The translations under genes were made by a program, and so were the position numbers. A model generated the notes under the pieces. That model was given only the letters and a program-made list of their open reading frames with translations, had not been told where the DNA came from and made no database searches. A DNA stretch of 43,663 bases from a virus. The DNA lies in IMG/VR virus record IMGVR_UViG_3300022821_000036, positions 1 to 43,663 of that record; one strand, 5' to 3'. Within the stretch, counting starts at the first letter, position 1, and the number at the start of each line of letters is the position of its first letter. This document shows positions 1,222-28,080 of the stretch, one piece after another.

Positions 1222-1725
1222 TTAGCTTTCGTCGTAGTTCATTGTGAACACTGCTAAGCTGGTATCGCCTGCGGCTGCGGCCGAGGTAGTTACTAATTGC
1301 AAAGGAATATAATCGGAATATCCTGATGCAACTAAACCACTTGCAAGCCCACCACGACATCTGATATTAGCTGTTCCTGGATCAGACGTTGGGATTGCTG
1401 ACACACATACTCCTGCGCCAGTTACTGGTGCTGTGTACGCGCTTGGTGTCGCTGGCGCCCACTGGATATCTAAACCTGTTGCTGGAGAGAAGTTGGTAGA
1501 ACGCCAGAACTGAACATTGTCAATCTGATTAAATGTTCCAGTAAATTTTGCTCTCAACCAAACTTCATAACTCTTGTCACCGGCAGTGATTGGGTTTGCA
1601 GAATAGTTTGCGGCGGTGGCATCATCTGCTCTTTTGAAGTTGAACAGATTACCTGAAATTCCTAAGTCGGAATTTGTACCTGCGCCAGAACCATATCTTT
1701 GCGCCCATGTAAATGTTGCGGCCAT
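1222..1725 (-). CDS. Predicted virion protein, 167 residues
   Basis: The protein is rich in Ala, Gly, Ser and Thr with beta-type composition (MAATFTWAQRYGSGAG; TSAAAAGDTSLAVFTMNYDES), typical of a phage decoration or tail-surface protein. Local GC content is higher than in neighbouring genes, as also seen for the capsid and the 108-residue virion protein. No enzyme motif is visible. The family is not recognised; the virion role comes from composition and position in the late operon. Confidence 0.65.
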   Translation of the reverse strand: MAATFTWAQRYGSGAGTNSDLGISGNLFNFKRADDATAANYSANPITAGDKSYEVWLRAKFTGTFNQIDNVQFWRSTNFSPATGLDIQWAPATPSAYTAPVTGAGVCVSAIPTSDPGTANIRCRGGLASGLVASGYSDYIPLQLVTTSAAAAGDTSLAVFTMNYDES

Positions 1726-1768: not shown

Positions 1769-2044
1769 TTAGTTTAACTCTAGATAGCACTTGCCATTCG
1801 TTCCTATCACCTTGACGTGCATTCCTTTATCAAATCTTATCCCTTCAAATTGGTGCTGGATTGACGTTCCAGACGCTCCAATCATTTCTATGACTACATC
1901 ACCCGAGGCATAGCCATCCCTAATGGTAACGGTACACGCTGAAACTGCTTTCAAACTCACGCTCTCGACCACCTGTGGTTGAGCTGATGTGAAAACCTGT
2001 TTGCCTACCGCTGCACTTACTGTGACTTCTTTTAATACACTCAT
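1769..2044 (-). CDS. Small beta-structured virion protein, 91 residues
   Basis: The sequence alternates beta-strand-like segments (VSLKAVSACTVTIRDG; VIEMIGASGTSIQHQF; MHVKVIGTNGKCYLELN), like small phage head-fibre or decoration proteins. Its start overlaps the TGA stop of the upstream glycosyltransferase as ATGA, so translation is probably coupled. No specific family was recognised. Confidence 0.6.
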   Translation of the reverse strand: MSVLKEVTVSAAVGKQVFTSAQPQVVESVSLKAVSACTVTIRDGYASGDVVIEMIGASGTSIQHQFEGIRFDKGMHVKVIGTNGKCYLELN

Positions 2045-3252
2045 TTTTTTATATTATTTAATCTTTCATAGCGCTGTATAATTTGCATATATGCGTCATG
2101 ATATAAATTAATGTTATCGGCAATCCATTTACTGGAGATCCAATTCTTATTTCTCCTTACGATGTCTTGCCTTTTTTTAGGATTTTCGACCAGATCCTTG
2201 ATATGATTATACCACTCATCAAAGCTTTTTGCTAACAATACATCGCACCCGTCATCTTTGGCCTCTGAGTAAGGAACAACGTCTGATGCAACTATAGGAT
2301 ATCCAATGGCTGAATATTCTCTCAACTTCAGGTCTGACTTACAGTTACCGAATGATTCATTTACTACTGGAGCTAAGGCAATATCCCATCCATGACTTGC
2401 TAATACAACTGGATAATTGTCAATAGACTCTCCCATCCATGTCACAGAATCTCCCTGATATCCACACTGTGGGCAATTATCATGAAATTCTTCTAATCCG
2501 TCAAATACTCCTTTTAGTTCGTGCTTAACCATTCCCATCGTCTCAAACTTTATTTTGCCTTTATATTCTCTAACAATTTTCTCAATTACTTTTGAAATCA
2601 TTTTAAGGTCATCAATGTGAGCGTTTCCTCCTGCCCATCCGATCCTAATATATCCATCGCTTTTTTTGGTTAGTTGTTGCTCCCAGTTACTTTCATTTAA
2701 GAAATTAGGAAGAACGTATATGTTTTTATTACGCGTGAATAGTTCTCTGGCTAATTGTGGAGTAGAAACAGTTACGGCTGACGCAGCTAAAACCTGTTTT
2801 GTAAATCTATGTATAAATAATGTTCCTGGGTTCCATGCACCATAACCGCCTTCATTGTTTGGTGATACTTTATAAAGAAAATCATCACACTCTACTACTA
2901 CTGGTTTCTTATTCTCTATTGCAAAATTCATTGCCTCAATCGATGCACTAGATCCAGTTTCTTGAAATACAACTAAATCAGCTTGAATTATGTGTTCTCT
3001 AGTTGTTGTCTTGAAATCCGTGATCGTGTTCATTAGTCCCATTGTTCTTAGAAATGAGGCTGGCTGTACGCATCTATAAAAACCGCAACCTCCTTTATCT
3101 CTAATTACAAATAATACTGTTTTTAACTCCTTATTGAATTCTATCTTTGTTGGATCTACTTCTGTGACATCTTTTTTCTGTGTTTGAACTTGTTCTGTTG
3201 GTCCATCTGCCCCAGCGAATTTTATTGTTTTCATTGGTTTTATTTCTGGCAT
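2041..3252 (-). CDS. Glycosyltransferase, GT4-like (403 residues)
   Basis: This is a glycosyltransferase with the two-domain GT-B layout. The N-terminal half begins its fold at about residue 45 with VLFVIRDKGGCGFYRCVQP, a pattern seen in phage and metagenomic GT4-type enzymes. The C-terminal half has RIGWAGGNAHIDDL (about residue 203) and a nucleotide-sugar-domain end (LREYSAIGYPIVASD, then DVLLAKSFDEWY). The first 40 residues are a charged extension. It is one of three transferases lying between the capsid and fibre genes, together with a methyltransferase-like gene, so it may sugar-modify a virion protein or host surface glycan. Donor and acceptor cannot be read from sequence. Its TGA stop overlaps the next start. 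Confidence 0.82.
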   Translation of the reverse strand: MPEIKPMKTIKFAGADGPTEQVQTQKKDVTEVDPTKIEFNKELKTVLFVIRDKGGCGFYRCVQPASFLRTMGLMNTITDFKTTTREHIIQADLVVFQETGSSASIEAMNFAIENKKPVVVECDDFLYKVSPNNEGGYGAWNPGTLFIHRFTKQVLAASAVTVSTPQLARELFTRNKNIYVLPNFLNESNWEQQLTKKSDGYIRIGWAGGNAHIDDLKMISKVIEKIVREYKGKIKFETMGMVKHELKGVFDGLEEFHDNCPQCGYQGDSVTWMGESIDNYPVVLASHGWDIALAPVVNESFGNCKSDLKLREYSAIGYPIVASDVVPYSEAKDDGCDVLLAKSFDEWYNHIKDLVENPKKRQDIVRRNKNWISSKWIADNINLYHDAYMQIIQRYERLNNIKK

Positions 3253-3254
3253 AG

Positions 3255-3719
3255 TTATTTTTTAGATTTTTTAGCAGATACTATTACTTCGTAATGCTCT
3301 TTTTTGAATTGAATCCCATCAAACCACGATCGTTGATCTTTCTCGGGGAATCCAGCGCTTCCTAGCAATGTAACTATATCTATCGAATTAAAATATGTCT
3401 TTCTTCTGAAGTCTCTATTAAACTCTTCGAGCGATAAATCTCCTCCAAGATACGCTCTATTTATATAATCGAAATCATGCTCGATTATATATAATTCTCC
3501 TTCTGGTTCTAGGATATCGAAGAAGTTTTTTATCATCGGTACAACTTCGTGTGGTTCTGCAAGACCTAGGATGTTAAAAGCATAGATTGTCTTAACCGAA
3601 GAAGCTCTCATATCTAATTTCTTGCGTGGATCCATAACTAGGTCTACTTCTGATCCAGGTTCGAACCACACAGATATTGCTTCTTCTACTTTTTTTACTG
3701 GTGTTATTTGTATTTTCAT
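3255..3719 (-). CDS. SAM-methyltransferase-like protein, shortened
   Basis: The 154-residue protein matches the second half of class I methyltransferases. It has a strand-helix-strand pattern around MRASSVKTIYAFNILGLAEP and then ILEPEGELYIIEHDFDY (about residues 88-104), which corresponds to the usual conclusion-of-cycle step LKPGG-hydrophobic strand. The glycine-rich SAM-binding motif I expected at the N-terminus is not visible, so it may be degenerate or non-catalytic. It lies between a glycosyltransferase and an amidase and is close-packed with both. Methylation of a sugar or virion component is an inference only. Confidence 0.6.
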   Translation of the reverse strand: MKIQITPVKKVEEAISVWFEPGSEVDLVMDPRKKLDMRASSVKTIYAFNILGLAEPHEVVPMIKNFFDILEPEGELYIIEHDFDYINRAYLGGDLSLEEFNRDFRRKTYFNSIDIVTLLGSAGFPEKDQRSWFDGIQFKKEHYEVIVSAKKSKK

Positions 3720-3721
3720 AT

Positions 3722-4225
3722 TTATGATTGGTTTCCTATATTATTAACGTAATTTTTGTATAGCCATACTGGCGTAATTACGTTGCTACAGAAATTATTT
3801 TTGTCAAAAAACTTATGATTATAATTGTCTTCTTGTCTTAGATTAAACCTTTCCATTAGGGCGTTGTACACCATAGCAGTGTTGTCTTTGATGGCTTGAT
3901 CGGTTGGTGGTTTGTCGAAATATCTCCCGACGATTTCTACTCCGATACTATTCTTATTTCCCTTTGGACCAGCGTGAGTTCCTTGCTTACCGATCGGCGT
4001 GAAGAGCCATATTCCATCTGGTGCAATAAAGATGTGTGGTCCTGACTTCCAACCCTTCGACTCGTATAAATTATAATAATGAAGCATTGATGCCGAACCA
4101 TCCCAGATCTTTATCGGGGACGAGGTGTGATGATAAACAACCTTGTCGATTCTGCGCTTCACCTTTAAGGTATTGATATAATCCCTGAACTGTTCTTGGT
4201 TCAATCTTTTGTTTAATATTTTCAT
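3722..4225 (-). CDS. N-acetylmuramoyl-L-alanine amidase (PGRP/Amidase_2 fold)
   Basis: This is a 167-residue peptidoglycan amidase, expected to cut between N-acetylmuramic acid and L-alanine. Family landmarks are VVYHHTSSP (zinc ligand at His32 or His33), GPHIFIAPDG (about 62-71), GTHAG (82-86) and NSIGVEIVG (92-100). The C-terminal ligand pair is probably His137 and Cys146 (NHKFFDKNNFCSN). There is no signal peptide or separate wall-binding domain. It sits among glycosyltransferases rather than next to the small membrane proteins at 35.8-37.6 kb, so it could be a virion-associated lysin for entry as well as a classical endolysin. Confidence 0.88.
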   Translation of the reverse strand: MKILNKRLNQEQFRDYINTLKVKRRIDKVVYHHTSSPIKIWDGSASMLHYYNLYESKGWKSGPHIFIAPDGIWLFTPIGKQGTHAGPKGNKNSIGVEIVGRYFDKPPTDQAIKDNTAMVYNALMERFNLRQEDNYNHKFFDKNNFCSNVITPVWLYKNYVNNIGNQS

Positions 4226-4226
4226 A

Positions 4227-4991
4227 TTAATTTTTGCCGTAAGTTTGGTTCTCTAAAGAAAAACCTTCTTCACGACCTGATAAAACATCGTTAAATTTTA
4301 TAAGTTTATTTCCGAAATCAGATTTGAAATCTTTCTTGATTGCCTTATCTCTCCTTTCCTTCCATTTCGCTGCATATTTTGGCCAGAAGTCTATATAATA
4401 ATCACATGTTTCTTGCCAATGCTTTACAGATAATCCTTTTCCAAAATGTTTGACAATTCCAGATACGATAATCATTGGTGCTGGAGGAAGGTCAACAACT
4501 CTCTGATCTGGCTTATCGTATTTAAGATAGGCTGAGTTTTTGAAGAAAAAAGGAATCGTTCTAAATTCTGGACCAACCCAATTTCTTTTATTATGATTTT
4601 CTTTTACATCCTCGGGCGTTATATATATATCATATAACTTGCATGCTATCGCATCTATTCCTTCCTCGAAGAAATAATTCCAGTCCCAGAAAAATAACCT
4701 TTCATCTGCGTCGAAATAAACAAACCAATCGCCTTCCTCTGCGTCTTGCTGTGCTCGTTCTAGTGCTCTTTGGCGATTAACCCATTCCATCTTTTCTCTG
4801 TCTGGATCCCAGAACTTAGTTATAAGAACGTCTTTTACTGCCGGATGAGCCTTGCATATTTCAACTGTCCTATCGTCAGAAGCATCATCGACTATATAAA
4901 TTCCTCCTGAACAATAAGAAGCCCAATGATCAAGAGTCTCCTTGATTATTTGTTGTTCATTCCTCACCTTGCAAATGCCAAAAATTTTCAT
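4227..4991 (-). CDS. Family 2 glycosyltransferase (GT-A fold)
   Basis: The 254-residue enzyme starts with the GT2 nucleotide-binding core: MKIFGICKVRNEQQIIKETL, then GGIYIVDDASDDRTVEI (about residues 29-45). It has a metal-binding DxD in VYFDADERLF (Asp94, Asp96). This is the arrangement of glycan-decorating GT2 enzymes that hold a sugar nucleotide with a divalent metal. Its start overlaps the upstream GT4 gene stop as ATGA. Together with its two GT neighbours it probably builds or caps a short glycan; the acceptor is unknown. Confidence 0.88.
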   Translation of the reverse strand: MKIFGICKVRNEQQIIKETLDHWASYCSGGIYIVDDASDDRTVEICKAHPAVKDVLITKFWDPDREKMEWVNRQRALERAQQDAEEGDWFVYFDADERLFFWDWNYFFEEGIDAIACKLYDIYITPEDVKENHNKRNWVGPEFRTIPFFFKNSAYLKYDKPDQRVVDLPPAPMIIVSGIVKHFGKGLSVKHWQETCDYYIDFWPKYAAKWKERRDKAIKKDFKSDFGNKLIKFNDVLSGREEGFSLENQTYGKN

Positions 4992-5980
4992 GATATTAAT
5001 CCTTCAGCAATTTTAATAAGTTCAGCTGCGGCTACCTTGACGTTATGATTTTCTTTCATAATTTTGTGCATAGCATCCACCGTCTTCTGGTTCCACGCTG
5101 CATCTATCTGAGCAATTATTTCTTGTGAAGAAGCAAGGTTATTGTTTGATTTCCATCCTCTGCCACTACAATTGGTTCTAACGAGGTTTTTATAGTTCTC
5201 TGGCGTAATTGCTCCTCCAGTACCCCAACGTCCATGAATGACCCCAATCTTGCCCATGCAGACGCCTTCTAAAACTGATCTACCCATGCCAAAAACTATG
5301 TCTGCATCTTTTATTACCTGATCTACTTCAAATGTTGGAGCGAAGTTAGCGCCAATGCCCATGAACTTTGCATCGTAGTGATCTGCAACTTCCTTAATGA
5401 TTTTATTTATATCATCATCGGCTCCCCAATAATTAGAATTAACGAGAATTGTTTTTGGTTTTTTTGGCAACTTGCCAACCTTCTTAAACCTATCCAGGTC
5501 GAAGAAATTCCTAAGTAACTTAGATTGAATTCCGTACACTTCCAATAAGAGATCCTGGACTTCTTCTGATACAGCAATATATTGATCTACCTTAAATTCT
5601 GTTACTGGATGTTCTGGAAACATTTCGCCAGTCTCTGGATGCTTGTGCATTATTCCATGAACTACTGCGATCATAGGAACGTCTGGAAACTTGCTATGAA
5701 GAAACTTCGTTATCTCGTGATGAGCACAAATTACAACGTCGAATGTTCCTTCTTTTTCTTCAAAAATAGGAGAGAATGGTTTTATTCCATTATTGTCTCC
5801 AGTCATATCCTTAACGCACTTGACTCCTAATCCTTCTAGCTTTGTGGCTACGAGTCCAAGATCTTGACTATAAGCAGTTACTTCATGCCCTAATTTAACT
5901 AATTCTGTGGCTAGGGTGAGCATCCACATTTCTGATCCTGCCAGCCAGTTAAATGTATTATTTCCTAATAGTATTTTCAT
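4988..5980 (-). CDS. Glycosyltransferase, GT4-like (330 residues)
   Basis: The N-terminal GT-B domain is recognisable from MKILLGNNTFNWLAGSEMW, followed by LATELVKLGHEVTAYSQ, the common GT4 opening. The second domain has PKTILVNSNYWGADDDINK and IKDADIVFGMGRSVLEGVCMG, where the acidic residue and following glycines correspond to the donor-binding helix. It is the first gene after the strong hairpin that follows the capsid genes, so its expression probably depends on read-through or a separate weak signal. Its TGA stop overlaps the GT2 start. Confidence 0.83.
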   Translation of the reverse strand: MKILLGNNTFNWLAGSEMWMLTLATELVKLGHEVTAYSQDLGLVATKLEGLGVKCVKDMTGDNNGIKPFSPIFEEKEGTFDVVICAHHEITKFLHSKFPDVPMIAVVHGIMHKHPETGEMFPEHPVTEFKVDQYIAVSEEVQDLLLEVYGIQSKLLRNFFDLDRFKKVGKLPKKPKTILVNSNYWGADDDINKIIKEVADHYDAKFMGIGANFAPTFEVDQVIKDADIVFGMGRSVLEGVCMGKIGVIHGRWGTGGAITPENYKNLVRTNCSGRGWKSNNNLASSQEIIAQIDAAWNQKTVDAMHKIMKENHNVKVAAAELIKIAEGLIS

Positions 5981-5995
5981 AATTTTAATATAACA

Positions 5996-6028
5996 AGGGG
6001 AGCGTTCACCATAAGTGTTCGCTCCCCT
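5996..6028 (-). terminator. Strong hairpin after capsid genes (attenuating terminator)
   Basis: GGGGAGCG at 5997-6004 pairs with CGCTCCCC at 6020-6027, with an outer A-T pair and an inner CAC/GTG pair. On the minus strand the stem is followed by TTGTTATATT, an imperfect T-rich tail. It lies just after the 108-residue virion gene and before the glycosyltransferases, so it probably limits capsid-level transcription from entering them, or stabilises the capsid mRNA end. Confidence 0.7.
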
Positions 6029-6050
6029 GCTTGGTTGTAGTTTAGGTTAT

Positions 6051-6377
6051 CTAGAGCAAAAGAAACGCTTTGTACTTGATGCCATCTAGGTTGCCAACGA
6101 CGTAGAAGGCGGCTGATGTTGCGGCCGACGCGGCGGCTTGTGCAACTACTCCGGCTGAGATAGTACATACTGTTTCTGCTGCTGTTAGCAATGGCGCAAC
6201 GATTACCATTGATGGAATAGCTCCGAGTTGATGGGCTACGGCATAAGTCACTTCGCCTGATATACAGGTCCCTGAAATAGCCTGGCCTTTCAACTCATTG
6301 AGACGTAACTTAATTCCACTTGTCCCGTCGAAACCGGGAAGATAACCTGATACTGAATCTCCTCGTGATAGGGCCAT
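6051..6377 (-). CDS. Small virion protein after major capsid, 108 residues
   Basis: The protein is Ala/Gly/Val-rich and beta-type (MALSRGDSVSGYLPGFDGTSG; AVAHQLGAIPSMVIVAPLL; AFYVVGNLDGIKYKAFLLL) and directly follows the major capsid gene in the same transcript. In many phages this place holds a head-decoration or head-tail protein. No enzyme motif is seen. It lies inside the transcription island bounded by the promoter at 8357-8385 and the hairpin at 5996-6028, implying high expression with the capsid. Confidence 0.7.
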   Translation of the reverse strand: MALSRGDSVSGYLPGFDGTSGIKLRLNELKGQAISGTCISGEVTYAVAHQLGAIPSMVIVAPLLTAAETVCTISAGVVAQAAASAATSAAFYVVGNLDGIKYKAFLLL

Positions 6378-6410: not shown

Positions 6411-7574
6411 CTAGCCTTTCAAATTCCAATGGATGGCGTGAGCCTTTGCTGCTTGTAGAACCTCCATCGTGTATTCTCCTACGACTTGCCATTTTTCGGC
6501 ATCGCCAGTTTTTGCAAGTTTCTCTAGGAAGAATGGGCGACCTTGTAATGGTTTAATCCTGATTCTACTTGAATCAACAACGATAGCGATATCGCTTGGA
6601 ATCCATCGGTCGACTACGACTCTAAGATTTACTCCTAGATCTGAAACAAATTCTTCAACTGTGAATCCAGCCCTTCGGCTATCAAGAGTTGATCTGCGAT
6701 ATTCCTTATCGAAGGCTGATATCTTTTGTTTCTGTGCCCCACCGACTAATATGAGGTTTGGTTCGCCACCATCGTCCCATACTTGCTTAATCATTGCGTT
6801 CAAAACGCTTGGAGTAAGTGTTTCTGAAGTTGATGTGGTGTTTCCACTTGAGGCATGTTTGACGTAGTCAATAATGCCACCCATGGTTCCGTAAACTGTA
6901 TCTGAGTGATCAGATGCGGCACGAATACCCATGATAACGGTTCTATCTAATTCTCTAATAAGTTCGCGTAATCTCTTATCAATTTGATAAGAATCTTCGG
7001 CTGCAATACCATTATGTTCAATGGCAAGAGCTGTGCCGGTTAGGTTGACGCCTTTTGAGAAGATCTGAGTATAGTTGTAAGATCTTGTTCTAGCGACTGA
7101 CTCATCTTTTGGTCCAGTCATTCCCTCTGGGCGAGGGTTAGACACAATATCGTATATTGCAGATGCGGCATGCGTATCGGCTGAAGTTCCACCATATCCA
7201 CGAGTGACTGTGGCAGATACTCCACTAATTGCAGTTACCTGCAATACTTCTTGTTTTCCTGAGAGCTGATCTCTGAGCAACGTTCCGGCGGTGACGCGAC
7301 CGGCATGAGTTGTGCTTGTTAGACACAATGCAGAGCCAGTAGCTGATACAGCGGATTCCAAAATCCTTCCTGCTGTAACAGTGACGGGGTTGAGTTCGTC
7401 TTCGTCCCACTGATGTTTAGTTTGTGACACTGGCTTGCCATCACTAGAAAATCCTAATACCGAAAGCATATTAGCATCGTCAAGTAAAATAGCATCAACC
7501 ATTGGTTCCAAACTAAGCATAAGAGTTGCACTTTGATCGTAAGATGTTGTTTGTCCTGGTGCTTGTAGGGCCAT
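6411..7574 (-). CDS. Major capsid protein, SU10/DUF5309-like
   Basis: The 387-residue protein shows the layout of the SU10-type HK97-fold capsid family. It has an early inserted beta domain with TVTRGYGGTSADTHAASAIYDI (part of about residues 100-150), then EGMTGPKDESVARTRSYNYTQIF, a long helix region with RELIRELDRTVIMG, a P-domain-like stretch DSRRAGFTVEEFVSDLG, and the ending VGEYTMEVLQAAKAHAIHW. It follows the scaffold gene immediately and precedes a small virion gene, the usual head order. It should assemble the icosahedral shell. I see no evidence of a cleaved propeptide. Confidence 0.92.
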   Translation of the reverse strand: MALQAPGQTTSYDQSATLMLSLEPMVDAILLDDANMLSVLGFSSDGKPVSQTKHQWDEDELNPVTVTAGRILESAVSATGSALCLTSTTHAGRVTAGTLLRDQLSGKQEVLQVTAISGVSATVTRGYGGTSADTHAASAIYDIVSNPRPEGMTGPKDESVARTRSYNYTQIFSKGVNLTGTALAIEHNGIAAEDSYQIDKRLRELIRELDRTVIMGIRAASDHSDTVYGTMGGIIDYVKHASSGNTTSTSETLTPSVLNAMIKQVWDDGGEPNLILVGGAQKQKISAFDKEYRRSTLDSRRAGFTVEEFVSDLGVNLRVVVDRWIPSDIAIVVDSSRIRIKPLQGRPFFLEKLAKTGDAEKWQVVGEYTMEVLQAAKAHAIHWNLKG

Positions 7575-8669: not shown

Positions 8670-11600
8670 CTATTGATTCATTGGGTACATTAAATTAAAG
8701 TATTTTATTTTTAGATCTGCTGGCAATCGATCGAAGATTCTAGAGTCGAGTTCTTCTCTATATGATCTCAATGATTGCTGAACGTCTGGAATATATAGAT
8801 TGTTATCTATTATTATTTTATTGAACTTATCGTAGTCTCCATCCATATAGGCATTCATCGCTTCGTTCATTCTGTTGGCTCTTTCTTCTGTGCCCTTCTT
8901 GATTATATCAATTTTTTCTGATTGTTTTGCTGCTTCTTCTGGGCTAAATCCGGCAGTTACTTTAAGAAGTTCTGCAAAGTCAACAAATCTTATAGCCTTT
9001 CCAGATGTCTGAGCATATAGCATGAATGGTCTATCTGGGTCTGTTGATGGATTAGTCCCGGCTTCAAATCTCTTTACTGATCTATAAAAGTTTTGGAGTT
9101 TTTGAGACTGGACTCCAAATGCTATTCCTCCATAGATTTTCATCGTACTTGTTATATCTTTCCATGCTTTATTAACATCATCATCAATATTATTTAATGC
9201 AGAACTCATTGCTCCGACTCCAGTAGCCATCATCTTTCCTAAAGGACCGAATCCAAATCCTCCCATCGGTCCAATGACTGCCCACTTAGAAGCATCAATT
9301 CCTAACGTCTCTTCAGCTGTTCTTTTGACTGCGGTTCCTGCCGCATACCATCTTATTAATTTGTCCCATTGACGACGAGATATCCATTTTTTTAATGTAT
9401 TGGCATATTCAAATCCCCATTGTGTAAATTGCAATGCCACTTTACCGCCTAGCCCATAATGGAATCTTGACTCTGATCCTTTCCTGTATGGAAATTGTGT
9501 ATCATCTATCTTATCCTGAATCATCATGTTCAAGGCTTCTTTAACCGCAGTTTTATCTCCGTCTATTCCTTCAAGAAGTCTTTTTCTTACCATATCTTGT
9601 AATACTGGATTGAAACCATCTAGATTGATATTTTTCTCAAAATCTTCGTAACTTATTTTGCCACTCCTCACTAATTCCCAGTTTTCGTCAAATCTTCCTT
9701 TTGTAGAAAAGTATGCTTGGGTTCTATTCGTTGTATCTCTTGATGCGTAAGGTATTAACGTGGCTGCATTTATCTTTTTTACTGCATCGACAGATTTACC
9801 GACAACACCTTTTCCTTCTGCTGCAAATACTTCTGATCCGTATGGTACACCACTTTGAACCAAAAATCCGGCTTCTCTTACTTCTTGTTTTCCTCCAGGT
9901 TCAAGTGCTTTTTTAACACCATAAGCATACCATTTTGGTCCAAACTCAGGATAGTTCATTAATGGACTTTGCATTGAATTCCTAACTACTGGCATTGGTC
10001 TTCCACCAAGTGCCCCAGCATAAGAAAGTGACATTGCTGCATCGATTGATTGTTTTCCTACATTTTCTGGAATATGTCCATTCGTTAGCTTGCTAACTTT
10101 TTGACTAAGTTTGTCTAATAAAAATGTTAAGTTATCTTTATATCCAAGTTTTTCTTGTAAATAACTAAGCGCGTTTTTTCTAATATAGTTAGGTGCTTCG
10201 TCTATAACATTCTTCGCGTTTTCAACTGGCTCTGCAAGAAAGATTTTCTTTGCAGTGGCGCCCATGTATACATCGAATAATGCTAGTGCATTATCTTCTA
10301 CATGACTAAGCATTCCAGTTCTTTCGAAAGAGAAAAATGGTCTAAGCTCTGCTGGAAGTTCATTTGATTTATATCTACTATAGGTTCCTCCAGTTCTGGC
10401 CAGAGATGGTCCATATTCGCCAAAAAACTCTCCAAGATCTAACTCTTTTCCATAGAGTTTTTTCATTATTAAATATTGCTCTTTGTATTGCTTTATAAAC
10501 CAGTCTCCGATCTCTGATAATTCTGCTTTTTGTATATCCGTAAGCCTATCGTTTTGTAATACAGTATCTTTGTTTCCCCTCACATAATCATCGACAAGTC
10601 TCATTTCTTCTGTATTATTTCCATGCTTCCCGGTGACTTCTCGTGCCGCGGCTTTCCATCTATCTGTAAAAACTTTAACTTGTCTTGTTGCAAGTTCTAT
10701 CGGCATAAAAACTTCAGAATATACTGGTACTCCAAGTTCTTGTTCCGCCGCAGCCATCCAATCTCTTGTCCTGCTTACCCATGGACGAACCATGAAAGCT
10801 TTCTCAAGGTCTGGAGACGTTGGGGTAGTATCGTTGAATGCAAGAATAGCTTCAGAAACTTTATAGGCTTCATCTTGATCTAGTTCGTGCAAGCTATCTT
10901 TCCCAGTCATTACCTTGACTGTTGCGCGAATTATTACGTCTGGCAAACTTCGATCAACTGCTAAAGCCTGTATTTGTCCAATCTGCTTCTTAGTAACAAC
11001 TTTATTATTAAAGCCTTTCAGTGGCTTTGACATTACTGATGGAATAATTCTTTCGCTATGTGGCGTTACTGGTTTTGATCCTGCGATTGTTGCTGTTCCG
11101 GTTGTTTCTTGTCCTGGTAATTGTTGAAGGCCTGTTCCACCTCCTGTTGGATCTGTTGAGGAGATTTCCCCTCCGTCGATATTAGCGATATTAGTCTCTT
11201 TGGCATGTAATTTTGTAAAAACAGTTTCAAATTTTTCTAAGTCAAATACTCCAAGTTGCCCAGCACTTTCAGCTTCAGTTATAGTTTCTGGCGTAGCTGG
11301 ACCAACTTTTGATATGTCTAAATATATTTCTCCATCTTCTTCCCATGTCCCTATATGATTCCCTGGCTCTAGGAGTTTCGGAAGGTTGGTTTGTATGAAA
11401 GATGTCACGGCTCCTTTGGTAAATGTTTCCACTGGAACCTTTGTTTCGAGTCCTTTGTATGGAGAATAAGCATATCCTTTTACTGGGACGTCTCCAGATA
11501 GATTGATAGTGACTCCTTTATTTTCAACTGTACTTTTATATGCTAAATCTCTAACGCCTTGATATTCTGGAGCAAGTCCAGCTCCTTGAGTTAATCCTGT

Positions 11601-13031
11601 TGCTAATTGAGTATTGTCGATAATTGGTGATACTTCTGAGACTTGTGGTTCTGTATATCCAAGACTCGTTAATGATCTGGCGATATCTTGAGTTGCTCCA
11701 ATGCTTCCGTCTGGTCCAGCAACTTGCATTATCGAATCGATTGCAGATTTGCCAGTAATTCCTTCTGGTAAATTTTCTACAGCTTCAATTCCAAGAGATT
11801 CTTGTTCTCCTCTATAAATACGATTCAATTCGTTATAGGCATTTACTTCTACCGGTGCATCTTGAGGAAATGTATTTACTCCTTGCTCCGGTACTGCTGG
11901 GCTAGTCACTGCTCCAGGTATTGCGCTGGGTGGCACAATTCCAGAAGTTGCGACTCTTTCAGCTGCGACTTTTGTCACTGCTCCAGCTGCTATTCCTCCG
12001 GTTGCTTGGGCCGGAGTGACTGCTGCTGGGCTGATTGGGTTTGCTGTTGTAATTGCCCCAGTTGATTGCGAAGTATTCTTAACAATAGTTTCCAGTCTTA
12101 TTTCAGTTCCGTACTGTCCTGTGGTTACGTTTGATTTACCGAATTTCTTCACGAAAAAATCTTTTGCTGTTTTTGCAACAGATCCTTTTATATCAACGAG
12201 AGTATATTCTACTTGTCCTTGTCCTACTGGAGTTCTTTTTATCGCAGTATTTTTAGCAACTTTAACATATGTTGATTGTTGATTCTGTACTCCAGTTCCA
12301 AATTTTTGTGTTGCGGTTGGATCAATCTTAGTTTCTATTTTAGACTTGAGAGTTTGTTTTGAAACAAAACGATCTGTATTTTTTTGTGTTATGGTTTTTG
12401 TCCCAGGAGACTTAACTAATCTTTCCTGAAATGCAGATGACCCTAATTGAAACATCGAATAAAGGATTGCCAAATCACCGGATGTTTCCCCTGTTGCTTT
12501 AATTGCTGATGATACTTTTCCAAGGCCCATTTCCCGTCCTTCTGCATATGATCCTCCAAATCCTCTAACCTCACCAAGCCATGGTAAATTATAGCTCATA
12601 CCGATTCCTTCTTCTCGATATATATCTTTTGCTGTACGATTTTTATCTAACGAAGCTCTTCCTCCAACCGATATATCATATAAGGTTTGTGCTACCTTGA
12701 ATGGAACTTTTAGTAAAGATTTTCCAATCATTGGTCCTTTATCTTTAAGCTGTTCGTTCTTCCATTCCATTTTTTCGAATTGACCCATCTGATCCCAGTT
12801 TTCTGGAGTTTCTCCTTCTATGTTAGAAACAAGTTCTTCTCCAATATAATCATACCAGTGCGTTCCTTTGTCTTCCTGAACTGGAGCTTGCTGTGCTATA
12901 TTTACTTGATTGTCTCTTACTTGCTGAAAAAGATCAGATTGGTTTCCTTGATCTGTCTGTGCTTTATCTATTGGTTGACTCTGTTGCGGTTGAACAGAAT
13001 ACTCTGGTGAATATATATCTTCTCTTGGCAT
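8670..13031 (-). CDS. Very large virion protein (1453 residues), possible ejection protein
   Basis: This is the largest gene. The N-terminal 100 residues are Gln/Pro-rich and polar. A long low-complexity Ala/Thr/Pro/Val middle (about 330-480) follows, then helical segments in the second half (RTRDWMAAAEQELGVPVYSE; LVDDYVRGNKDTVLQNDR; AMSLSYAGALGGRPMPVVRN) and a Gly-rich hydrophobic patch (WAVIGPMGGFGFGPLGKMM). It lies between the portal group and the scaffold, with no separate tape-measure gene visible. Large, mostly helical proteins here are typical of internal or ejected proteins of short-tailed phages. No transglycosylase or polymerase motif was identified. The role is inferred from size and context. 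Confidence 0.7.
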   Translation of the reverse strand: MPREDIYSPEYSVQPQQSQPIDKAQTDQGNQSDLFQQVRDNQVNIAQQAPVQEDKGTHWYDYIGEELVSNIEGETPENWDQMGQFEKMEWKNEQLKDKGPMIGKSLLKVPFKVAQTLYDISVGGRASLDKNRTAKDIYREEGIGMSYNLPWLGEVRGFGGSYAEGREMGLGKVSSAIKATGETSGDLAILYSMFQLGSSAFQERLVKSPGTKTITQKNTDRFVSKQTLKSKIETKIDPTATQKFGTGVQNQQSTYVKVAKNTAIKRTPVGQGQVEYTLVDIKGSVAKTAKDFFVKKFGKSNVTTGQYGTEIRLETIVKNTSQSTGAITTANPISPAAVTPAQATGGIAAGAVTKVAAERVATSGIVPPSAIPGAVTSPAVPEQGVNTFPQDAPVEVNAYNELNRIYRGEQESLGIEAVENLPEGITGKSAIDSIMQVAGPDGSIGATQDIARSLTSLGYTEPQVSEVSPIIDNTQLATGLTQGAGLAPEYQGVRDLAYKSTVENKGVTINLSGDVPVKGYAYSPYKGLETKVPVETFTKGAVTSFIQTNLPKLLEPGNHIGTWEEDGEIYLDISKVGPATPETITEAESAGQLGVFDLEKFETVFTKLHAKETNIANIDGGEISSTDPTGGGTGLQQLPGQETTGTATIAGSKPVTPHSERIIPSVMSKPLKGFNNKVVTKKQIGQIQALAVDRSLPDVIIRATVKVMTGKDSLHELDQDEAYKVSEAILAFNDTTPTSPDLEKAFMVRPWVSRTRDWMAAAEQELGVPVYSEVFMPIELATRQVKVFTDRWKAAAREVTGKHGNNTEEMRLVDDYVRGNKDTVLQNDRLTDIQKAELSEIGDWFIKQYKEQYLIMKKLYGKELDLGEFFGEYGPSLARTGGTYSRYKSNELPAELRPFFSFERTGMLSHVEDNALALFDVYMGATAKKIFLAEPVENAKNVIDEAPNYIRKNALSYLQEKLGYKDNLTFLLDKLSQKVSKLTNGHIPENVGKQSIDAAMSLSYAGALGGRPMPVVRNSMQSPLMNYPEFGPKWYAYGVKKALEPGGKQEVREAGFLVQSGVPYGSEVFAAEGKGVVGKSVDAVKKINAATLIPYASRDTTNRTQAYFSTKGRFDENWELVRSGKISYEDFEKNINLDGFNPVLQDMVRKRLLEGIDGDKTAVKEALNMMIQDKIDDTQFPYRKGSESRFHYGLGGKVALQFTQWGFEYANTLKKWISRRQWDKLIRWYAAGTAVKRTAEETLGIDASKWAVIGPMGGFGFGPLGKMMATGVGAMSSALNNIDDDVNKAWKDITSTMKIYGGIAFGVQSQKLQNFYRSVKRFEAGTNPSTDPDRPFMLYAQTSGKAIRFVDFAELLKVTAGFSPEEAAKQSEKIDIIKKGTEERANRMNEAMNAYMDGDYDKFNKIIIDNNLYIPDVQQSLRSYREELDSRIFDRLPADLKIKYFNLMYPMNQ

Positions 13032-13052
13032 ATTAGTTAGCTACAAAAACTT

Positions 13053-14399
13053 TTAAGAGAATATCCTCTTTAAGTAATCTACTCCAGATCTTACTGTCTT
13101 TTGAATTACGTTACCTGCTGCGACTGGAGATTCTTCATCTGGTTTTTTTGGAGTTTTTTTAAGTGTTGGAACTCCTGGTTCTGGGGTCGTTGGAACATTC
13201 CTCTGTATAACTGACATGTCTCCGAGTGATTGTGTTTGAGGTAACGCTTGTGGTGCGGCCTCTGGAACTCCTTCTTGGAGTTGTGGTCCCAATGGAGCTT
13301 GGTTTAATCCTTCATCTGGAGCTATCGGAGCCGACATATCAATAGTGTCATCAGACTTACTCATGATTGCTTTCTCATAATAATCTGGCAATGTTATCAT
13401 TCGATCTTGATCTGGCATGTTTGGCATCGATCTATTTATGTTTATATATTTTGAATATCCTCCGTCTTCTCTTCTTTTATAAACACTACCATCAACGCCC
13501 TTAGCCCATGAGTTTGTTGGAATATATCCCTGAACTTGCAGTGATTGTCCTTGCAAATTCACATATCCACTTTCTCCTATTAGCCTTCCTCCAGCAGACT
13601 TTGAGTTTGCGACAAGTTTATTTGGCTTCATAGAGCTAGGATTCTCTGGATCTGGCATTATCATATCAACTGCCGAGAATTCAGTGTCACCTAATATAAA
13701 ATAATTATTTCCATCCCTCTTGTAATTTGTTTTACCATAAACCTGGAAGCCATCTATAGTTCCGTTAGTTTCCGCATATCCAGACTTAGATCCATATTTT
13801 GCATAATCAACATCGACAATTTCTCCGTTGTTATTGGTAGTAACATATGCAACGTGTCCTTGTATTGGATTAGTTCCGTCAAAGTTTGCCATTGCTGATA
13901 CAGCCTCTAGTTGGTTCCTGTATTGATTCATCGTTGCATTATATTCATTCATATACTCTGAAACATCATCTCCGGCTTGCTGTTTTATAGATATCATTTC
14001 ATTCAAATCATTTATCTTCGCTTCGGTACTTAGCTTTCTATAAAATAGAAAATCTACTGGACTATTTCCAACTGCCATAACATCTTCAGCTCTTTCTGAT
14101 TCAACAGATCGGTTCATAAAGCCTATATCTCCCTCTTTCGATAGAACTCCTACTGACTTTTGTTTTTCAAAGGCTGAGATTTTCACATTATATTCGGACT
14201 TCTGACTTGCACTTAATCCGGGCATAGATTGTATTGTTCTAGCCTTTTCGATTAAGAGATCGTAATCTCCAGGCGACAAGAAACCATCTTTTCCTAGCTC
14301 GTTTTGTAAAATGGAAAGTTGGTCTGCAAGAAGTCCGGAGTTTGATCCACCAGAACTTCTCATCGCTGGGTTTAAGAATGATACGTTAAATACTGCCAT
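13053..14399 (-). CDS. Predicted structural protein, 448 residues
   Basis: The family is not recognised. The N-terminal half is helical (LLADQLSILQNELGKDGFLS; IEKARTIQSMPGLSASQK), the middle is beta-type (YVTTNNNGEIVDVDYAKYG; GYVNLQGQSLQVQGYIP) and the C-terminal 110 residues are Pro/Gln-rich and probably disordered. Its place between two other large structural genes and the portal suggests an internal or tail-associated virion protein. Confidence 0.65.
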   Translation of the reverse strand: MAVFNVSFLNPAMRSSGGSNSGLLADQLSILQNELGKDGFLSPGDYDLLIEKARTIQSMPGLSASQKSEYNVKISAFEKQKSVGVLSKEGDIGFMNRSVESERAEDVMAVGNSPVDFLFYRKLSTEAKINDLNEMISIKQQAGDDVSEYMNEYNATMNQYRNQLEAVSAMANFDGTNPIQGHVAYVTTNNNGEIVDVDYAKYGSKSGYAETNGTIDGFQVYGKTNYKRDGNNYFILGDTEFSAVDMIMPDPENPSSMKPNKLVANSKSAGGRLIGESGYVNLQGQSLQVQGYIPTNSWAKGVDGSVYKRREDGGYSKYININRSMPNMPDQDRMITLPDYYEKAIMSKSDDTIDMSAPIAPDEGLNQAPLGPQLQEGVPEAAPQALPQTQSLGDMSVIQRNVPTTPEPGVPTLKKTPKKPDEESPVAAGNVIQKTVRSGVDYLKRIFS

Positions 14400-14400
14400 G

Positions 14401-16236
14401 TTATATTTCGAAAGATTTTAATAGGCTTACGTTTTGTTCTGAGGTTCCAGAAAAATCAAGTTCTTCTCCAAGACCTTGCTGTTTGTATAGTTTTTTCCTT
14501 GACTCAAAGGATGCGTCTTGACCTGTTGATTTTAGATAATCAACTATAGACGCGAATCCTTGTGACGTTTGAGTTGGTTTAATTGGTTCTGGTTTGACTA
14601 TCGTCGGAGTGGAGGTTGCTTTAATCTCAGATCCGATTGGTGATTGACCAAAATTGGTTATTTCTTGAACTGCCGAATATCCCTTACCAGTTGATTGTTT
14701 TAGGGTATCTTCGTTCCAGTCTCCAGTTAATGGCCGTAGAGATCCACCTTCCATTTTATAAACTGTTATCTCGCCAGGCTTTCTGTATAATCCACCTTCT
14801 TCTATTTGTGGTTGTTGTGCGAACGAACTTCCTTCTGCCTTTGGATCAATAGTAATTTTATCGGTTTCTCCGAATTGCTGTCCTTCGGCTTTTGCTCCAA
14901 CTCCCGTAATAACATCAGTTGCTTTGGCCGTCGCTAGTTCTTCTGGAGAGAACAATACTCCAGCTCCAGACTTTACGGCTCGATCGAGATATTGTTGTTG
15001 TGATAATCCTGGAGTGTTTGCCATATCTTGCTGCATCGTACTAAGGATCTCTCGTACTTGAGATTCTTTTTCCTTAGCCGCTGACGATATAATCTTTTGA
15101 TAGTTTAGAGTTTGGTCAACTCCGTAAGTGTCCTGAATAGCTGATATGTCGCTTATGGCTTTTTTAGCATCTAATTTTACGGCAAATTCATTTAATATGC
15201 TTTGTGCTCTCAAGTCAGCAGTGCTCTGAAGTGCTACTTGCTGTTCTTGCGCTATCCTATCTTGGTAATCTGTAAGCTCTGGTCTATTTTTTATAGTTTC
15301 GTAGAATGCTTTAACTTCTGACAATGATTCAGTTGATAATATTCCACGACTTTGTTTATAGGTAACTTGATCACTAAGCTCTCCTTGATATCTTGCGAAG
15401 AATCCATTATCGGTTCTGTCATTCAAATAGTCTCCTCTCTTCATTTCCCAGAATTGTTTCGCAGAATCATATTGAACTCCACCGATATTAATTGGAGATA
15501 GTTCATTTGCTCCAGAGACTTTTGTATTAAGTTCGTTGAGTGTTCCAAGTGCCGATTGACCAGTCATTGTGGCAACAGAAAAGTCTAAGATGGCTCTACT
15601 TACCATAGCCTCTTCGTTAGTTTTATTTAGTGACTGTAACTGTAAGTCCAATAGCGTAACATAGTCTTCGTTCCCTGCCAATGATGCGCTCGTGCGCTCA
15701 TTATTAATTCTCTCAATTTGGTCTTGGACTATTTTTGGTGTCTTATCTTTATTTGCATAATCTGTCTGACTTGACAAGGCATTCTGTCTTTTTTGGTATC
15801 GCATCCCTTTTAACTTGCTTATGTTTTCTTTAACATCTTGCTTGATTTTTATGTCTGTTGTTTGTTCTAGTTTTTTATTTAACCAATTGATAGTTGTATC
15901 GATTGATTGCATTCCAGAGTTCAAGAACATTACTTGTTTCAAATAGGCGTCAGAAAATTTCTTCTGTTCGATTAAATCTTTAACTGTTGAGATTTCGTTC
16001 TTAATTCTCCTTTTTTCATCTTTATCTCCAGAGACTACTCTTCCTAGTTGATCATTCCTATATTTGAGTTGTTGATCCAACGTAAGGTTATCTTCTAATA
16101 CTGACCTAGTGAAGATTGCTTCGTCCTCTAAGTTCCTTCTAGTTCTAGCTTTTGATATAAGCAAAATCTGAGAACTTATATAGGTTCCTAGGTTTGTTGC
16201 TATGACTTTTTTGTCACTTAATCTTTCATAGGCCAT
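14401..16236 (-). CDS. Predicted coiled-coil virion protein, 611 residues
   Basis: The protein is strongly helical in its first 430 residues, with heptad-like charged stretches (LDQQLKYRNDQLGRVVSGDK; IDTTINWLNKKLEQTTDIK; KAFYETIKNRPELTDYQDR), and has a polar, Pro/Gln-rich C-terminus. It follows the portal gene by two bases. Helical proteins at this place in short-tailed phages often form the internal core or ejection apparatus. No enzyme motif is seen and the family is unknown. Confidence 0.65.
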   Translation of the reverse strand: MAYERLSDKKVIATNLGTYISSQILLISKARTRRNLEDEAIFTRSVLEDNLTLDQQLKYRNDQLGRVVSGDKDEKRRIKNEISTVKDLIEQKKFSDAYLKQVMFLNSGMQSIDTTINWLNKKLEQTTDIKIKQDVKENISKLKGMRYQKRQNALSSQTDYANKDKTPKIVQDQIERINNERTSASLAGNEDYVTLLDLQLQSLNKTNEEAMVSRAILDFSVATMTGQSALGTLNELNTKVSGANELSPINIGGVQYDSAKQFWEMKRGDYLNDRTDNGFFARYQGELSDQVTYKQSRGILSTESLSEVKAFYETIKNRPELTDYQDRIAQEQQVALQSTADLRAQSILNEFAVKLDAKKAISDISAIQDTYGVDQTLNYQKIISSAAKEKESQVREILSTMQQDMANTPGLSQQQYLDRAVKSGAGVLFSPEELATAKATDVITGVGAKAEGQQFGETDKITIDPKAEGSSFAQQPQIEEGGLYRKPGEITVYKMEGGSLRPLTGDWNEDTLKQSTGKGYSAVQEITNFGQSPIGSEIKATSTPTIVKPEPIKPTQTSQGFASIVDYLKSTGQDASFESRKKLYKQQGLGEELDFSGTSEQNVSLLKSFEI

Positions 16237-26120: not shown

Positions 26121-26330
26121 ATGCCAGATAGCACAATAAAACAATTTGAAAAAGAGCTGAGTGAGCTAATAAATAAGCATTGTCGAGAGAATCTATCAAA
26201 TACTCCAGACTTTATTTTAGCAGAATACTTGGTTGGTTGCTTGACTAATTATGAAAAGATTCACAACAATAATGAAAAATGGTACGGTAGAGGGCTTGAG
26301 ATAGAAATGCCAAATAATAATTTAACTTAG
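26121..26330 (+). CDS. Unknown early protein, 69 residues
   Basis: An acidic helical protein (MPDSTIKQFEKELSELINKH; FILAEYLVGCLTNYEKIHNN) with a tail NNNLT whose last two codons and stop are part of linker copy 2. The type is common in phages, with unknown function. It is the first protein gene of the TTAACTTAG-linked block. Confidence 0.65.
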   Translation: MPDSTIKQFEKELSELINKHCRENLSNTPDFILAEYLVGCLTNYEKIHNNNEKWYGRGLEIEMPNNNLT

Positions 26331-26336
26331 TAATAT
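26322..26336 (+). repeat. Cassette linker, copy 2
   Basis: TTAACTTAGTAATAT supplies Leu-Thr-stop of the upstream gene and ends six bases before the next ATG (26343), with ATAACT between, as in copies 3 and 6. Confidence 0.9.
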
Positions 26337-26342
26337 ATAACT

Positions 26343-26552
26343 ATGAAGAAGAAGGAATTAAAATGTCCAATATGCAAAGGAAAAGGAACAATAGATATTC
26401 CAAATAAACTTAATCCATATTTCAATATACAGGTTGACGCTAAGTATATTGCAAAGTCATTGAGAGCAGAAAAGTATTCTTATCGAGAAATTGCTCGCAT
26501 TATGGGTTATAACAATCCACAAAGTATTAAAAATTTAATAGAAAGCACATAA
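26343..26552 (+). CDS. Small protein with zinc-knuckle start and HTH-like end, 69 residues
   Basis: The N-terminus has CPICKGKGTI, the CxxCxGxG half-motif of DnaJ-type zinc fingers. The C-terminus has YSYREIARIMGYNNPQSIKN, which reads like a helix-turn-helix. It may bind DNA or RNA. Its stop TAA overlaps the next start (TAATG). Confidence 0.6.
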   Translation: MKKKELKCPICKGKGTIDIPNKLNPYFNIQVDAKYIAKSLRAEKYSYREIARIMGYNNPQSIKNLIEST

Positions 26553-26791
26553 TGAAAGAACTTAATAGACCGATTTTTATAGCAAAGAAAAATTATAACT
26601 TTGAAGAAGTAGATATTTTTCTACGAGTTAAGGGCAGATTGCCCACGGAAAAGGGAGATGGGCTTACACAAGAGATACTAGATGAGTATTGTGAAAAGTT
26701 TGATAAGAAAGAATTGGTGCAGGGAATTGTGCCACTAAAGTTAATGTATGACCTTATTAAAAGTGGAGAAATAAATAGTAATTTAACTTAG
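26552..26791 (+). CDS. Unknown early protein, 79 residues
   Basis: It begins MKELNRPIFIAKKNYNFEEV and ends NSNLT, the final codons being part of linker copy 3. It has no membrane segment or metal motif. The start overlaps the stop of the preceding gene, so the two are probably co-translated. Confidence 0.6.
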   Translation: MKELNRPIFIAKKNYNFEEVDIFLRVKGRLPTEKGDGLTQEILDEYCEKFDKKELVQGIVPLKLMYDLIKSGEINSNLT

Positions 26792-26797
26792 TAATAT
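26783..26797 (+). repeat. Cassette linker, copy 3
   Basis: Identical 15 bases; gives Leu-Thr-stop to the 79-residue gene and lies six bases before the RNA ligase ATG at 26804. Confidence 0.9.
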
Positions 26798-26803
26798 ATA
26801 ACT

Positions 26804-27463
26804 ATGGAATATCATAAGATACAGACTATGTTTGAGAGAGGGGAAAACTTTAATGTCATCGAAGACAAACTGAGAAACCCAGTGTATGGGACAATTAACA
26901 AGTGGCGTGCTAGTGAGAAGCTAGACGGAACTAACATAAGAGTTTATCTAACAAAAAAGGGAGAGGTAAAAATTAGGGGTAGGTCAGAGAATGCTAACAT
27001 TCATGGACATTTGATAGAGTGGATTTTGACTAATCTACAAGTAAGCAAAATGAAAGAAGTATTATGGAGACCAGACAAAGATGGGAAGATTGAACCTGTT
27101 GATATAGTTCTATACGGAGAAGGAATAGGGGCAGGAATACAGAAGGGTGGAGGAGATTATAGTGAAGAAAAGATATTTGTTCTATTCGATGTTTTAGTAG
27201 ATGAGAAATGGTGGCTAGATTATGACGCTGTAATAGAAATAGCTGGAAAGCTAGGCATCAATCATGCACCAGACTTAGGAGTGATGACATTGGATGAGAT
27301 TATTAAAAAAGTCAAAGACGGAATGGTCTCTATTTTCGCCAAAGAGAATAACGGAAAAGAAAGAGAATCAGAGGGTATAGTAGCAAGACCGATTGAGACA
27401 TTGTTCGATAAGAGGATGAAAAGAGTCATAATCAAGATTAAGAGCGCAGACTTTAGGCATTAA
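26804..27463 (+). CDS. RNA ligase, Rnl2-type nucleotidyltransferase
   Basis: The 219-residue enzyme has the covalent nucleotidyltransferase motifs in order: motif I SEKLDGTNIRVYL with the lysine at about 39, motif Ia-like KIRGRSENA, motif III DIVLYGEGIGAG (about 100-111), motif IV SEGIVARPIE (Glu190) and motif V VIIKIKSADF (about 208-217). It would be adenylated by ATP and reseal nicked RNA. It lacks the extra C-terminal domain of T4 Rnl2, so it is a minimal form. It lies 0.7 kb downstream of two tRNA-like elements, which suggests, but does not prove, that it repairs tRNAs cut by host defence nucleases. Confidence 0.88.
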   Translation: MEYHKIQTMFERGENFNVIEDKLRNPVYGTINKWRASEKLDGTNIRVYLTKKGEVKIRGRSENANIHGHLIEWILTNLQVSKMKEVLWRPDKDGKIEPVDIVLYGEGIGAGIQKGGGDYSEEKIFVLFDVLVDEKWWLDYDAVIEIAGKLGINHAPDLGVMTLDEIIKKVKDGMVSIFAKENNGKERESEGIVARPIETLFDKRMKRVIIKIKSADFRH

Positions 27464-27488
27464 TCAATGCTAAATAATAATGAGTAAA

Positions 27489-27503
27489 TTAACTTAGTAA
27501 TAT
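27489..27503 (+). repeat. Cassette linker, copy 4
   Basis: Identical 15 bases. Here it is not part of the upstream coding end: the ligase stops at 27463 and AAATAATGAGTAAA precedes it. It ends six bases before the ATG at 27510. Confidence 0.9.
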
Positions 27504-27509
27504 GAAAAT

Positions 27510-27902
27510 ATGTTCGACAAAACAATAAACGAATATGAATCAAAAGTAGTGGCAGTAACTAAGGAAATTGAGAAGACGATAAGCCCAGATAAGGTTACTG
27601 AAATGTATGATGCCGTTAAAGAGCAAGTAGAAAAAGACTTTATCTGCAGTTATACAATAGAATCTAACAGCATGAACGCAGTAGTGGTAGTTTTAGCCGA
27701 AGAGTTTAACACAAACACCAAACGATATATTGCAAGATATACGTTGAATGAGAAAGAAATAGTCATAAAAGGAATTTTACCAGAAGATTATAAGGGAAAA
27801 CAGACAAGTTATTTGGCAAATGAAATACGAAACCATTATGCGCATGAAATATCCATGATATTGCTCAGAGAAACAGCTCCAATTATTCATCCATTAACTT
27901 AG
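27510..27902 (+). CDS. Unknown early protein, 130 residues
   Basis: Helical N-terminus (YESKVVAVTKEIEKTISPDK), a beta-type centre (NSMNAVVVVLAEEFN; RYIARYTLNEKEIVIKG) and an ending HPLT formed from linker copy 5. No family recognised. Another ATG eight bases upstream (27502) opens only a very short frame and was not used. Confidence 0.6.
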   Translation: MFDKTINEYESKVVAVTKEIEKTISPDKVTEMYDAVKEQVEKDFICSYTIESNSMNAVVVVLAEEFNTNTKRYIARYTLNEKEIVIKGILPEDYKGKQTSYLANEIRNHYAHEISMILLRETAPIIHPLT

Positions 27903-27908: not shown

Positions 27909-28068
27909 GAAAATGAAGATACGTGATATTGAAAAGGAATATGGCATTAAAATGGATGCTCGTAAAAACATGAACACAAGTACGTGGTTGCGCAAGAAAG
28001 GCTTATCTAACATAGCAAAGGCATTAGACTTAATTGAACAAAAAAAACCAAATAGCAAATTAACTTAG
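27907..28068 (+). CDS. Small basic early protein, 53 residues
   Basis: It reads MKMKIRDIEKEYGIKMDARK, then NMNTSTWLRKKGLSNIAKAL, and ends SKLT from linker copy 6. The basic middle with a TWLRKKG turn could be a small DNA-binding unit. The flanking linkers on both sides support it as a real gene. Confidence 0.6.
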   Translation: MKMKIRDIEKEYGIKMDARKNMNTSTWLRKKGLSNIAKALDLIEQKKPNSKLT

Positions 28069-28074
28069 TAATAT
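28060..28074 (+). repeat. Cassette linker, copy 6
   Basis: Identical 15 bases; gives Leu-Thr-stop to the 53-residue gene and lies six bases before the next ATG (28081). It is the last copy; downstream genes lack it. Confidence 0.9.
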
Positions 28075-28080
28075 ATAACT

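Follow-up and report, generated by a model that had tools for sequence, protein, structure and literature searches.

What does a virus modify with the sugar enzymes that it encodes among its virion genes? This question is raised by the IMG/VR record IMGVR_UViG_3300022821_000036, which was analysed over its full length of 43,663 bases (hereafter the window) and carries a gene cassette of this kind at 2041-5980 on the minus strand. An earlier interpretation made from the letters alone (the sequence-only reading) had described three glycosyltransferases, a methyltransferase-like (MT-like) gene and an amidase between head and fibre genes, and all five genes were recovered on the minus strand, with an SU10-type capsid gene upstream and the fibre module downstream. 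The transcribed order is capsid gene, p108, GT4, GT2, amidase, MT-like, GT1, p91, p167 and p214 (Table 1). As targets of late glycosylation, virion proteins or the host surface had been proposed. Position favours the virion proteins: the cassette is attached to the capsid gene in 8/8 records of its clade, homologues lie near unrelated capsid and tail genes, and mycobacteriophages offer analogous gene sets. The cassette most likely builds a short glycan on an abundant virion protein, namely the capsid protein, p108 or a fibre.

The Pfam scan, which covered ten proteins of the window with curated cut-offs, assigned each of the three glycosyltransferases to a family. GT4 matched Glyco_transf_4 (PF13439; E 1.7e-10, score 41.6 against a cut-off of 28.5), GT2 matched Glyco_tranf_2_4 (PF13704; E 3.9e-13, 50.2 against 27.5) and GT1 matched Glyco_trans_1_4 (PF13692; E 5.5e-6, 27.1 against 27). 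Seven related records were collected via similarity to the capsid protein or to GT1 (L002, L003, L004, L005, L025 (= L046), L044 and L045), giving eight with the window. The order capsid gene, hairpin, GT4, GT2, MT-like and GT1 is kept in all eight, so that the arrangement is not a matter of chance. Likewise present in 8/8 are the metal/donor motif DxDE of GT2, the cysteines C56, C61, C260 and C263 of GT1 and the GT4 motif GMGRSVLEG..HGRWGTGG, two copies of which show a change of GG to AG. Profiles of GT2 and GT4 gave no match among solved structures, GT2 and the MT-like protein gave no match in a phage collection, and the GT1 sequence alone found no close relatives among viral contigs; the distant GT1 loci L026-L043 contributed GT1 matches only.

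Between GT4 and GT2, L025 has an HNH gene, L005 a full methyltransferase gene and L002 a reading frame of 113 aa, while the amidase lies between GT2 and the MT-like gene only in the window, L002, L005 and L025. These extra genes on either side of GT2 indicate that the cassette tolerates passengers. Coupling of the genes by ATGA overlaps, as described earlier, was found at two junctions (GT4/GT2 and GT1/p91), but the other three junctions within the group are gaps of 1-2 nt. In L044 and L045, p91 and p108 were recognised by eye. These two records also hold a second pair of genes (L044 16670-17981, L045 16111-17431; assigned by eye), encoding a methyltransferase with intact LGCG/IGCG and a glycosyltransferase-like protein, which follows p91 and one more gene and precedes the fibre genes.

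The strong hairpin described ahead of GT4 is real (Table 1). A stable hairpin is found in the p108-GT4 gap in 8/8 records, with z between -2.2 and -6.7 and with differing sequences, the folding in L002 and L005 having covered only the first part of a long gap. None of 200 shuffled sequences folded as well in seven records, and 6/200 did so in L044. What is conserved is thus the location of the hairpin, in keeping with a terminator or processing site through which the capsid message would come to exceed the enzyme message.

The label of methyltransferase-like gene proved apt for the fold of the encoded protein, but a working methyltransferase is improbable. The protein of the window (154 aa) has no Pfam match, while its orthologue in L025 matches the second half of Methyltransf_11 (profile positions 37-95 of 95). 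A Foldseek search of the AlphaFold2 model (predicted local distance difference test, pLDDT, 79.5) against the PDB retrieved class I methyltransferases (1vlm, E 2.9e-7, template modelling (TM) score 0.60 by query). The glycine-rich motif I for S-adenosylmethionine (SAM) is present in 0/8 records, IS-P or a comparable sequence standing in its place; further on, the LEH signature has partly eroded too. Intact relatives with LGCG or VGCG at motif I are a methyltransferase of 152 aa next to GT4 in L139 and gp5 of Streptomyces phage KimJongPhill. Although motif I is gone, the gene is retained in 8/8 records, the proteins of five aligned relatives being 27-54% identical to that of the window, and the simplest reading is that the protein is probably a non-catalytic partner with a methyltransferase fold. 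MT-like proteins encoded after the capsid genes of L048 and L050 are weakly related at the profile level and likewise show no clear glycine motif by eye.

The amidase matches Amidase_2 (PF01510; E 1.8e-13, 51.4 against a cut-off of 26 bits). The zinc ligands of this family are His, His and Cys; as candidates for them, the alignment shows conserved His residues in 4/4 copies and a Cys in 3/4, the L005 copy being without it. No amidase was found in L003, L004, L044 and L045, all of which retain every sugar gene; L003 and L025 are fragments, and the absence from L003 could be merely local. Being missing from 4/8 records, the amidase is regarded as accessory, and the link to the cell wall that its place in the group had suggested found no support. 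That it is a functional part of the cassette, tying the glycan chemistry to peptidoglycan, would agree with its location inside the cassette in 4/8 genomes, but the four records above keep the sugar genes without it and the GT4-GT2 gap also hosts unrelated genes (the HNH and full methyltransferase genes of L025 and L005), so this role is given very little credence. The amidase is plausibly a passenger with an endolysin role; the alternative lysis enzymes M15_3 and CHAP were each found in 0/8 records.

Outside the clade, the GT4 family scan, in which position played no part in the selection, yielded 28 loci, 5 within the clade and 23 outside it that formed 15 groups. A capsid, major tail or tail-terminator gene recognised by PHROGs lies close to GT4 in 9 of the 15 groups, the scan having been made on genes that by eye seemed likely to encode capsid or tail proteins. 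Capsid genes of three families other than the SU10 type are found near GT4 in the L131 group, L134, L135 and L141. For L137, the L138 group, the L142 group, L145 and L152, it is the tail-terminator/tail-tube region that lies close to GT4. The group of L139, whose presumed tail-tube gene gave no match, was counted via its tail terminator. The remaining groups are L130, L136, L146/L148, L147, L149 and L150/L151, among which only candidates of L148 and L149 were scanned; the former had no match and the latter matched an Ig-domain family.

Several loci outside the clade resemble the cassette in gene order as well. In L135, whose capsid type is unrelated, the major capsid protein (MCP) gene is followed by GT1, a small gene, GT4 and GT2. 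In the Manatee Spring podovirus (MW202801), with another capsid, the MCP gene is followed by a glycosyltransferase, PhyH, a methyltransferase, a NodB-like gene and a GT1 homologue (profile E 1.8e-42), so that a glycosyltransferase, a methyltransferase and a GT1 homologue stand close behind the capsid gene as in the window; unlike the cassette, this locus has the extra PhyH and NodB-like genes and an Fe-S oxidoreductase gene, and its methyltransferase gave no match to the MT-like family. KimJongPhill gp4-6 have a methyltransferase immediately ahead of a GT1 homologue, in the same order as here, but motif I is intact (KLNVGCG) and the pair is placed ahead of the terminase.

Among SU10-type records outside the clade, 6 of 15 glycosyltransferase genes lie within 5 kb downstream of the capsid gene, a stretch that makes up 16% of the sequence (p 0.023). 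This count was based on 72 records, of which 14 redundant ones were dropped and 58 kept, with the strand of the hits left unchecked; of the six genes behind the capsid gene, those of L050 and L056 are below the Pfam cut-off, and L057, with a weak match, was dropped for its longer duplicate L058, which has no match. A glycosyltransferase-like gene of L061 seen by eye was not counted. Behind the distant SU10-type capsid gene of that record, the region 11590-14279 encodes a GT2-like protein, a methyltransferase whose glycine motif is recognisable and a protein of 411 aa that, by eye, apparently spans the membrane and could be a GT-C enzyme.

Precedents are offered by mycobacteriophages. According to the report on cluster O, an O-methyltransferase gene, two glycosyltransferase genes and a GlcNAc-transferase gene lie between the portal and protease genes, and the scarcity of capsid peptides led its authors to propose that the capsid is modified (PMC4351075). 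The cluster O set lies ahead of the capsid gene and not behind it, and by eye the glycine motif of its O-methyltransferase is intact, in both respects unlike the window. Glycosylation of the capsid by Che8 gp110 and Corndog gp38 is described (PMC12363180), and glycans on capsid and tail tube are attributed to Freeman 2023 as cited in PMC11256854, PMC12363180 and PMC12619734. Corndog gp35-38 and Firecracker gp33-36 resemble the cassette in that a methyltransferase gene and three glycosyltransferase-type genes lie in the structural operon near the capsid gene, with gp34 annotated as hypothetical. In Che8, whose capsid is glycosylated, gp108-110 are three tandem glycosyltransferase genes as in the cassette, but they lie at the far genome end, away from the capsid gene. 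No paper describing the present capsid-linked module was found in a search of open-licence papers.

Relatives of GT2 in bacterial genomes were found in Ignavibacteria, Paenibacillus and Phaseolibacter. The Ignavibacteria genome bin (L119 7980-13409) encodes a single protein of 1809 aa in which homologues of GT2 (51%), GT4 (28%) and GT1 (27%) are consecutive. This protein shares with the cassette all three glycosyltransferases, but it is a single polypeptide of cellular origin that has an additional GT2 domain (four glycosyltransferase domains in total) and tetratricopeptide repeats (TPRs), and no MT-like domain was seen in it. The fusion suggests that GT2, GT4 and GT1 share one pathway. Another GT2-TPR gene comes after the gene of the 1809-aa protein.

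Several observations weigh against glycosylation of a virion protein. The glycan is a prediction from the genes, and the position in the late operon would suit any late function. The enrichment among SU10-type records is only modest (p 0.11 against the 5 kb upstream alone) and could not carry the case by itself, 6/15 GT4 groups are without a verified virion neighbour, and GT1 homologues in a Phapecoctavirus and an Arthrobacter phage are placed among non-structural genes. BLAST and profile comparison of Firecracker gp33-36 with the cassette enzymes gave no convincing relation (best 7.3 bits), and Che8 gp108-110 showed no detectable homology to them; if virion glycosylation is right, the cassette therefore works like these systems without belonging to their protein families. 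Moreover, the GT2-GT4 neighbours of Paenibacillus and Phaseolibacter stand by genes for ATP-binding cassette (ABC) transporters typical of exported polysaccharides, in apparent surface-polysaccharide loci as judged by eye from reading-frame starts. These loci keep alive the alternative that, late in infection, the enzymes alter the polysaccharide of the host surface, for example against re-adsorption to debris or in order to exclude competitors. Serotype conversion by gtr cassettes combines a GtrA-type flippase with membrane glycosyltransferases, but the ten scanned proteins gave no Pfam match to a membrane flippase or GtrA-like protein. The late structural operon position seen in 8/8 records is unusual for serotype-conversion genes, and the genes recur near tail genes of other phages. 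Alteration of the host surface is therefore considered rather unlikely.

Some other target in the infected cell, such as a host protein or a small molecule in counter-defence, with the position among virion genes being a convenience of the operon, would accord with the groups lacking a virion neighbour and with the non-structural GT1 homologues, and the substrates of glycosyltransferases are unreadable from sequence; the repeated adjacency to capsid and tail genes of unrelated types makes it improbable. The sequence-only reading had itself named action on DNA bases as a result that would overturn it. Phage glycosyltransferases can hypermodify DNA (Pyle 2024 as cited in PMC12619734), but the genes stand in the structural operon, and no match to a T4-type DNA glucosyltransferase family was obtained among the ten scanned proteins. 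The thymidylate-synthase family (PF00303) was found in 0/8 records with a control that worked, and Tet_JBP also in 0/8, with a silent control, so that the latter says little. Glycosylation of modified DNA bases was rejected, as no precursor enzymes were found, and is held to be extremely unlikely.

Under the favoured reading of a glycan on a virion protein, late transcription would run from the capsid gene through the hairpin into GT4, GT2, MT-like and GT1, with the hairpin probably cutting the enzyme message relative to the capsid message. The three glycosyltransferases would then successively extend one chain from host nucleotide sugars, while the MT-like protein, presumably no longer binding SAM in the usual way, could act as a non-catalytic partner, e.g. 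by holding the acceptor or GT1, and the amidase would ride along. Regarding p108 as a candidate acceptor, its orthologues in L004 and L025 bear AVTSAKIG-type repeats and match tail-fibre PHROGs; its structure model is too poor for use (pLDDT 62).

Tentatively, a broader picture may be drawn, in which GT4, GT2 and GT1, counterparts of which are also found fused in a cellular TPR protein, form a transferable module for protein glycosylation that spread among phages with unrelated capsids and tends to settle beside the gene of the most abundant virion protein. In the present lineage, a dead methyltransferase would have been recruited to help GT1, either in binding the acceptor or in assembly. What is new is that one set of glycosyltransferases is linked to virion genes of unrelated types, that its relatives occur fused in a cellular protein and that the methyltransferase has eroded. 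To our knowledge, virion glycosylation by phage enzymes is known mainly from mycobacteriophages; if it also takes place here, it would be a much wider habit among environmental phages, and a mobile gene set would be recognisable from sequence, with its neighbour pointing to its substrate. With the MT-like protein, the idea that a phage pseudo-enzyme takes part in a sugar pathway can be put to the test on a definite example.

Table 1. Features of the cassette and its surroundings in the window.
Feature	Position	Strand	Evidence
Major capsid protein, SU10 type, cassette anchor	6411..7574	-	PF17236 (SU10_MCP) E 7.7e-73; 58-84% identity in seven related records
p108, short fibre-like protein	6051..6377	-	alignment with L004 and L025 orthologues
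Hairpin, intergenic, terminator- or processing-like, ahead of GT4	5981..6050	-	-23.2 kcal/mol, z -5.55
GT4, GT-B type glycosyltransferase	4988..5980	-	PF13439; conserved motif (see text)
GT2, GT-A type glycosyltransferase, DxD (DAD)	4227..4991	-	PF13704, PF00535
Amidase_2 protein, accessory, possible endolysin	3722..4225	-	PF01510; 4/8 records
MT-like protein without SAM motif I, probable pseudo-enzyme	3255..3719	-	fold search to class I methyltransferases
GT1, GT-B type glycosyltransferase, four invariant cysteines	2041..3252	-	phrog_7162 E 2.1e-45
p91, small protein, ATGA overlap with GT1	1769..2044	-	tblastn matches in L002-L005 and L025
p167, conserved, between cassette and fibre module, possible virion protein	1222..1725	-	63-80% identity in L003, L004, L005

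Beyond the cassette, p167 gave no family match in Pfam or PHROGs, and a search aimed at the host found no relatives of the capsid protein in bacterial genomes. An identical repeat of 122 nt stands at both record ends (22-143 = 43542-43663), which indicates that the record is probably complete (circular or terminally redundant) and that p214 probably continues into the LamG and repeat fibre genes; the order from p214 to LamG is directly visible in L004. The repeat-rich fibre gene (40556-42592) contains 7 copies of its unit at a spacing of mostly about 130 bases, and the same repeat is found in the LamG gene at 42718-42790. Adjoining the portal gene, p611 (14401-16236) has a C-terminal piece that matches part of an L-alanyl-D-glutamate peptidase PHROG and DUF3597, and its similarity to the L002 relative ends ahead of this piece.

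The plus-strand region encodes an RNA ligase (PF09414; 26804-27463) and an SMC-like AAA_23 ATPase (32218-33405). A repeat of 54 bases occurs four times (26296-26349, 26757-26810, 27463-27516 and 28034-28087; 61-83% to the reference), and all four copies have AACTTAGTAATAT in common, shortly ahead of an ATG. The plus-strand genes at 26804 and 27510 begin with two of these ATGs, and the repeats are possibly a shared promoter or translation signal.

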